DNA of 50,800 nt from a virus: positions 1 to 50,800 of the IMG/VR virus record IMGVR_UViG_3300022937_000032, one strand, 5' to 3'. The notes under the pieces were generated by a model. It was not told the origin of the DNA and made no database searches. It worked only from the letters and a program-made list of their open reading frames with translations. A program made the translations under genes and the position numbers. Every line of letters begins with the position of its first letter. Positions within the stretch are counted from its first letter, which is position 1. Below, one piece after another: positions 1,926-2,803 of this stretch.

Positions 1926-2108
1926 CTAATTAGCATTAGCTCTTGCTTCTTTTTGTTTCTCTAAAAACTCCAACAACATTTGAAAATATAAATCTCTTTC
2001 ATAAGGCATCAAACCTTCAATATCACTCAAACTCCATTTATGATGTTGAGTTAAACCGAATATAATTTGATAATAATGCCCTAGTGTTATATGACTAAGG
2101 CCTAGGTA
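1926..2108 (-). CDS. C-terminal extension of gp26 reached by -1 frameshift (chaperone T-like domain)
   Basis: This 60-codon open stretch lies in the -1 frame relative to gp26 and begins exactly at the slippery T run. It starts YLGLSHITLGHY and ends at TAG 1926-1928, 15 bases before the tape-measure ATG. The frame has an upstream TGA seven codons before the T run region and no ATG, GTG or TTG ahead of the slip. The first internal ATG would leave only 27 residues, so independent initiation is unlikely. The peptide contains WSLSDIEGLMPYERDLYF, which resembles the short 'xLxELExMxPxER' segments of tail-assembly chaperone extensions and of small gp51-type hub-assembly proteins. The fusion would be about 292 residues (232 of gp26 plus 60). 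The role, assisting polymerisation of tube protein around the tape measure, is inferred from position and mechanism. Confidence 0.72.
   Translation of the reverse strand, partial: YLGLSHITLGHYYQIIFGLTQHHKWSLSDIEGLMPYERDLYFQMLLEFLEKQKEARANAN
2078..2101 (-). promoter_or_regulatory. Putative frameshift-stimulating hairpin
   Basis: On the minus strand, GCCTTAG (2101-2095) can pair with CTAGGGC (2084-2078) around a 10-base loop, giving seven pairs including one G-U wobble. The stem begins six bases after the slippery heptamer, the spacing usual for -1 frameshift stimulators. The gp26 stop codon lies in the spacer. The stem is short, so the stimulation may be modest. Confidence 0.5.
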
Positions 2109-2803
2109 AAAAAAGTACGCATGCCCTCCACGACAAACGTTTTCTCATCACCTTTACTATTTGTATATTTCAGTTCTTGCCTTAACTTAGGCATTGTTTC
2201 AAAAAACTTTGTTACTTTTTTAATTACATCCCCTGACATATTATCCATAAAGTCAGCAATCTCTTGCTCTGAATGATCTTTAAAATAATGGACTTCATCT
2301 TCAGTGGCTATTTTATCTAAACATGCAACCATAATTCTATAATTCAATAATGGGTCATTAGGATCCATATCAAGTATAGATGCAAAATCATCAATAGACG
2401 GATACTGTAAAAATAAAGTCAATTCATCATTAATTTGAACTTCTTTCGAATGATCAGGATGATGAATAGTTTCCATTGTTTCAATGTCAAAGTCAAGTGT
2501 AATTTGTTCTTTTGTATCTGGGTCAGTAATAACAAACTCTGTAGTATTACTAACTGAACTTGATCTTAACTTTAGAAACACGTATTCTAAATCAATCATC
2601 GCGATTTCACTAATGTCAATATCAAATAAGCAATTATTTACAACTTGTTTAATTGCCATCATTTCAGCATACGGATCTTTTGTCTCCGCAGCCACTAAAA
2701 GGACTTTCTCTTCTTTTACCGTAAACGGTCTATATTTAACTTTACCTCCTGTGCTGGGTAATACCAACTCATTTAATGGTAAATCAATTTTTGGTAATGC
2801 CAT
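2102..2803 (-). CDS. 26: Baseplate hub protein gp26 / tail-assembly chaperone
   Basis: This 233-residue protein begins MALPKIDLPLNEL and has the family signature LPSTGGKVKYRPFTVKEEK near residues 17-35, followed by an acidic, helical body typical of T4-type gp26 (T4 gp26 is 208 residues). T4 gp26 is needed for hub assembly. In marine relatives this protein sits immediately upstream of the tape-measure gene, where other long-tailed phages place the tail-assembly chaperone. AGGAG precedes the ATG. The upstream gp54-like gene stops 16 bases before the start codon. The final codons read R-T-F-F-T-stop over T_TTT_TTT, so a minority of ribosomes probably continue in the -1 frame. Family identity is well supported; the chaperone role is inferred. 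Confidence 0.85.
   Translation of the reverse strand: MALPKIDLPLNELVLPSTGGKVKYRPFTVKEEKVLLVAAETKDPYAEMMAIKQVVNNCLFDIDISEIAMIDLEYVFLKLRSSSVSNTTEFVITDPDTKEQITLDFDIETMETIHHPDHSKEVQINDELTLFLQYPSIDDFASILDMDPNDPLLNYRIMVACLDKIATEDEVHYFKDHSEQEIADFMDNMSGDVIKKVTKFFETMPKLRQELKYTNSKGDEKTFVVEGMRTFFT
2108..2114 (-). promoter_or_regulatory. -1 ribosomal frameshift slippery heptamer T_TTT_TTT
   Basis: The minus strand has seven consecutive T. In the gp26 frame they read ACT TTT TTT ACC TAG, which is a canonical X_XXY_YYZ heptamer where both tRNAs can re-pair after slipping back one base. The gp26 stop is two codons later, and the -1 frame stays open for 60 codons. Confidence 0.75.

Follow-up and report, generated by a model that had tools for sequence, protein, structure and literature searches.

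The gp26 gene of the phage analysed here ends over a run of seven T's, raising the question of whether all ribosomes stop at the gp26 TAG or whether some are moved into the -1 frame to produce a longer tail assembly chaperone, as the original prediction had it. The window (the whole stretch of DNA that was analysed, i.e. 50,800 nucleotides of the IMG/VR virus record IMGVR_UViG_3300022937_000032) carries the locus on its minus strand [Table 1]. We are highly confident that the gp26 locus is a TAC-N/TAC-NC gene with programmed -1 frameshifting, the long form of which would be the equivalent of T4 gp51; judging from the sequence, the ribosome very probably slips back by one base on the T run near the end of gp26.

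Site geometry and identity of the -1 frame extension

The zero-frame product matches PF12322 (T4_baseplate; E 1.7e-48, 165.7 bits for a Pfam gathering cut-off of 24.5), a family also matched by all 57 relatives, as well as phrog_150 (E 1.7e-50). The gene ends on the minus strand in ACT TTT TTT ACC TAG; the T_TTT_TTT heptamer is thus in place near the end of gp26, followed by one sense codon (ACC) and TAG. In-phase U_UUU_UUY occurs twice in the 16,155 codons of the window's ATG-initiated open reading frames of at least 100 aa, and one of the two occurrences is the gp26 site, located 10 nt from the stop. We confirmed that the -1 frame is open for 60 codons from the slip at 2108 to a stop at 1928-1926, and that it ends 15 bases before the downstream ATG (1910). 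Upstream of the slip it extends over 12 sense codons back to a TGA and, as claimed, holds no ATG, GTG or TTG.

Table 1. Features of the gp26 locus, listed in the direction of transcription
Feature	Position	Strand	Details
Tail tube-type protein, upstream of gp26	3632-2820	minus	phrog_45 tail tube, E 5.5e-35
gp26, predicted short tail assembly chaperone (TAC-N)	2803-2102	minus	233 aa, zero frame
Shine-Dalgarno-like GGAGGG, candidate 5' stimulator	2129-2124	minus	9 nt upstream of heptamer
Slippery heptamer T_TTT_TTT	2114-2108	minus	in X_XXY_YYZ phase with gp26 frame
-1 frame extension, predicted C-terminal domain of long form (TAC-NC, gp51 equivalent)	2108-1926	minus	60 codons + TAG
gp26 zero-frame stop TAG	2104-2102	minus	single sense codon (ACC) between heptamer and TAG
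Hairpin, possible lineage-specific 3' stimulator	2101-2078	minus	8 bp, -11.0 kcal/mol, 6 nt after heptamer
Probable tape measure gene, start	1910-1	minus	position and size; runs off window

The extension matches phrog_634 (baseplate hub assembly catalyst; T4 gp51) with an E-value of 2.2e-20, and its addition to gp26 raises the phrog_150 score, the match then reaching profile position 276 of 282. In profile alignments (hhalign), the extension aligns only with the C-terminal end of T4-type gp51 (E 8e-8) and finds no match in gp26, while the gp26 profile aligns with the N-terminal part of gp51 (E 1.8e-9) and the joined-family profile with T4-type gp51 over 241 columns (E 1e-15). T4 gp51 aligns end to end with the joined protein but not with gp26 alone. 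T4-type gp26 and gp51 are themselves homologous (192 columns, E 1.8e-19) and PHROG 150 is matched by both T4 proteins. Together, these alignments and PHROG 150 matches indicate that T4 gp51 is built like the joined product and gp26 like the unjoined one. Modelled as a chain separate from gp26, the extension folds into three helices (pLDDT 86).

Codon differences among the loci tell which frame is under constraint. Over extension codons 1-20, synonymous and nonsynonymous differences number 149:151 in the -1 frame, as opposed to 40:264 in one of the remaining frames and 39:263 in the other; the synonymous excess is found in the -1 frame only, and this is the frame in which purifying selection acts. 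Restricted to the 16 loci with no start codon nearby, the comparison comprises five pairs only and is weak alone.

Conservation of the site and candidate stimulators of slippage

A search with gp26 as bait yielded 87 homologues (80 from IMG/VR and seven from named phages), 85 of which keep U_UUU_UUY, that is, every one with an intact gene 3' end; the reading frames of the other two (L048 and L053) are broken far upstream. The heptamer is U_UUU_UUU in 52 of the 85 loci and U_UUU_UUC in 33, lies exactly one codon from the stop in 83, and in none of the 85 is there a start codon upstream of the slip in the -1 frame. Because gp26 had served as the bait, a second scan was baited by the extension alone: U_UUU_UUY was found at 79 of 80 loci and U_UUU_UUA at the 80th, such that all 80 are slippery, with the reservation that the two sets share some contigs and are not independent. 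The heptamer and open -1 frame are accordingly kept among relatives by either route. Sinorhizobium phage phiN3, Caulobacter phage Cr30, Pseudomonas phage pf16, Cronobacter phage S13, Stenotrophomonas phage BUCT608, Vibrio phages VmeM-32 and K567 (the latter as U_UUU_UUC) and Aeromonas phage phiAS5 all have it; in Rhizobium phage I34 it reads U_UUU_UUG. The marine T4-like setting in which the original prediction placed this way of making a gp51 equivalent is therefore too narrow, even though the gp51 equivalence itself stands, on PHROG 634 and the profile alignments.

A homopolymer at the break point is also where a sequencing indel, or gene decay, might have split a once-continuous gp51-like gene. 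The heptamer and the relation of the frames are, however, the same in independent assemblies, in isolate genomes and in the near-identical contig L004, and this conserved architecture refutes such an error or decay, to which we give practically no chance.

Three members of the Straboviridae, phiAS5 (L183:2217-2390), VmeM-32 (L182) and S13 (L180), have an annotated gp26 and no full gp51; the C-terminal domain of gp51 is found in their -1 frame behind U_UUU_UUY, partly or wholly unannotated. Enterobacter phage EC-F2, a Pseudotevenvirus (L095:1501-2794), carries gp51 followed by a gp26-like gene on the same strand, unlike the divergent 26 and 51 of T4, and this gp26-like gene ends in an ALRGLEAFLKV motif.

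The most regular companion of the heptamer is a Shine-Dalgarno-like sequence. In 82 of 85 loci, 9 or 10 nt separate the heptamer from the end of an upstream GAGG or AAGG, and pairing with the anti-Shine-Dalgarno at or below -5 kcal/mol is predicted at the element in 82% of loci versus 3.4% elsewhere in gp26. The element falls on a conserved Glu-Gly, the Glu being encoded by GAG in 49 of 77 cases, versus 26% elsewhere (0 of 30 for Glu codons before Gly elsewhere), a bias that points to selection on the RNA. As in E. coli dnaX, a homopolymeric heptamer is here preceded, at a distance of some 10 nt, by a Shine-Dalgarno-like sequence and followed by a 3' stem, although the dnaX heptamer is A_AAA_AAG, slips with about 50% efficiency and, unlike the present site, makes the shorter product by the shift.

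The hairpin after the slip had been described as a stem of seven pairs; its 6-nt spacing held, but the stem has eight. Downstream of the heptamer, stems are enriched among the loci (mean z -1.1 to -2.1; controls, -0.2 to -0.5). They vary in place and shape from one relative to the next, and a conserved 3' stem-loop was therefore dropped and the hairpin not counted as a defining element. From the aligned loci, the candidate for a conserved stimulator is thus the upstream Shine-Dalgarno-like sequence rather than the hairpin. U_UUU_UUU alone is weaker than A_AAA_AAG in E. coli (PMC5009743), whence the slippage rate would depend on the candidate stimulators.

The same features bear on whether RNA polymerase, rather than the ribosome, slips on the T7 run, some mRNAs then joining the two frames. 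The window and 52 of the 85 loci do carry seven consecutive T's, as this explanation would have it. Described transcriptional slippage nonetheless involves runs near nine (PMC5009743), the run is T6C in 33 of 85 loci and T6A or T6G in others with the X_XXY_YYZ phase always kept, and a slipping polymerase needs no Shine-Dalgarno-like element at a fixed distance. We regard transcriptional slippage as highly improbable.

Termination at the gp26 stop followed by a restart at a nearby start codon would yield a free small gp51, and a separate gp51 is in fact annotated in S-PM2, P-SSM2, Syn9, Cr30, K567 and others. An NTG codon lies within three codons of the slip in 65 of 85 loci, often as TAATG, so that a separate start is possible there in principle. 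Two Ackermannviridae, Vibrio phage YC (L184:2150-2170) and Dickeya phage Ds9CZ (L185:2280-2300), keep the extension and lack the T6 run, the gp26 stop overlapping an ATG as TAATG, which suggests reinitiation or another route in these phages. Against reinitiation, the first NTG of the window's extension is codon 27, within the conserved domain, and pure reinitiation was rejected at this locus for want of an earlier start; 16 of 85 loci likewise have no NTG before codon 8. At about 20 nt from the TAATG starts, the Shine-Dalgarno-like element is too far upstream to be a ribosome-binding site, but it is at a dnaX-type distance from the heptamer. Reinitiation also leaves the invariant heptamer unexplained, and T4 gp51 is a single long protein that contains the gp26-like part. 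We therefore hold reinitiation to be very unlikely and retain programmed -1 frameshifting as the reading of the locus.

Chaperone fold, neighbouring genes and proposed mechanism

The original prediction recast gp26 as a chaperone, and the predicted structure supports this. In the AF2 model of gp26 (pLDDT 89.8), residues 1-84 superimpose on the HK97 tail assembly chaperone 2ob9 with a Z-score of 7.5 (83 aligned, 3.9 A; VIA-align) and the N-terminal region (84-93 residues) on 3fgx with a Z-score of 8.3, the next row, a non-chaperone, scoring 2.7. Both 2ob9 and 3fgx are named tail assembly chaperones (PMC9603447). Foldseek returned no PDB match to gp26 below E 0.001, with 2ob9 ranking first at E 0.61, and a sequence search of the PDB with the gp26 profile gave chance-level matches only. 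T4 gp51 is not part of the particle and is listed, together with gp26, among the hub assembly chaperones (PMC3004832).

The assignment of gp26 as the short form and of gp26 plus extension as the gp51 equivalent, two products predicted from the frames to share their N-terminal domain, is well supported because the extension matches the C-terminal domain of gp51, the signal and -1 frame are conserved, and the N-terminal fold is that of a tail assembly chaperone.

In the predicted order of tube-type protein, chaperone and tape measure, the upstream gene is of tube type by its phrog_45 match; downstream, the tape measure is assigned by position and size only. In the near-identical contig L004, where the frameshift architecture is repeated, the downstream open reading frame is complete (642 aa), and a related one lies downstream in relatives also. 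The probable tape measure protein has no convincing family match and no similarity to T4 gp29; its candidacy as a gp29 homologue was rejected for lack of a match. Phage lambda places a short and a -1 frameshifted long chaperone (G/GT) between its tail tube and tape measure genes, the order proposed here, although lambda is a siphovirus, unlike the T4-like phage studied here. The slippery heptamer of lambda G/GT differs from T_TTT_TTT.

That the ribosome slips, how often it does so, what each stimulator contributes and how the chaperones act are what we infer, in the following form. Most ribosomes would terminate at the TAG and release gp26, the short chaperone. A minority would be paused at U_UUU_UUU by the GGAGGG located 9 nt upstream, by the nearby stop and probably by the hairpin, and would slip backward by one base, both Phe tRNAs re-pairing with UUU. 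They would then read 60 more codons to make a 292-residue long form, the equivalent of T4 gp51. If the two forms act as lambda gpG and gpGT do, the short one may coat the tape measure protein, and tail tube subunits may be recruited through the C-terminal domain of the long one.

Relation to known chaperone genes and significance

Frameshifting is reportedly apparently conserved in several T4-like groups according to the 2022 work of Vladimirov and colleagues, T4 itself using genes 26 and 51. As expected from the original prediction, we confirmed that T4 has 26 and 51 as separate, divergently transcribed genes; both carry the N-terminal domain, and T4 gene 26 has no frameshift site at its end, unlike gp26 of the window.

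As cited by others, Vladimirov, Gautam and Davidson identified the tail assembly chaperone genes of T4-like phages (Virology 566:9-15, 2022; PMC10885494, PMC12846349), some of these phages having, in place of the frameshift, one short gene and one long fused gene (PMC10885494), as is reported for the T4 group, and poly-T -1 signals are ascribed to that work in T4-like TAC-N genes (PMC12846349). As far as these citing papers convey it, the locus studied here has the same gp26/gp51 family as TAC-N/TAC-NC and the same kind of poly-T site, here in an uncultivated phage. The arrangement is thus correct and, to judge from those citations, already published in kind. The fixed distance of the Shine-Dalgarno-like element, the one-codon spacing and the loss of the site in Ackermannviridae may go beyond the work of Vladimirov et al. 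as these papers cite it. Phage Adele, of another family (Vandenendeviridae), is described as having a TAC-N followed, ahead of its tape measure gene, by a TAC-C in the -1 frame, the extension being misannotated; its shift motif is GTTTTT, and the description of the site reports that motif but no Shine-Dalgarno-like element (PMC12846349).

A cassette of the dnaX type (a Shine-Dalgarno-like sequence 9-10 nt upstream, U_UUU_UUN, one codon and a stop) may well be ancestral, and we lean slightly toward a history in which it was replaced by the 26/51 duplication in the T4 group and by the overlapping TAATG in Ackermannviridae. If this is true, there would be three solutions for keeping the ratio of short to long chaperone.

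The frameshift also accounts for the seemingly truncated gp51 of marine T4-like phages. Cyanophage gp51 was described as about 20% of the length of other gp51 proteins with the first 200 residues missing (Sullivan et al. 2010, PMC3037559), and the portion of that paper concerned makes no mention of frameshifting; the N-terminal part would be the one held in common with gp26 and joined through the frameshift. The seeming lack of gp51 in Aeh1 is probably explained in the same way, its relative phiAS5 having the domain in the -1 frame. Many cyanophage records enter the extension as a small gene of its own or leave it unannotated. Finally, the fixed signal makes the ratio of short to long chaperone in the assembly of contractile tails testable.
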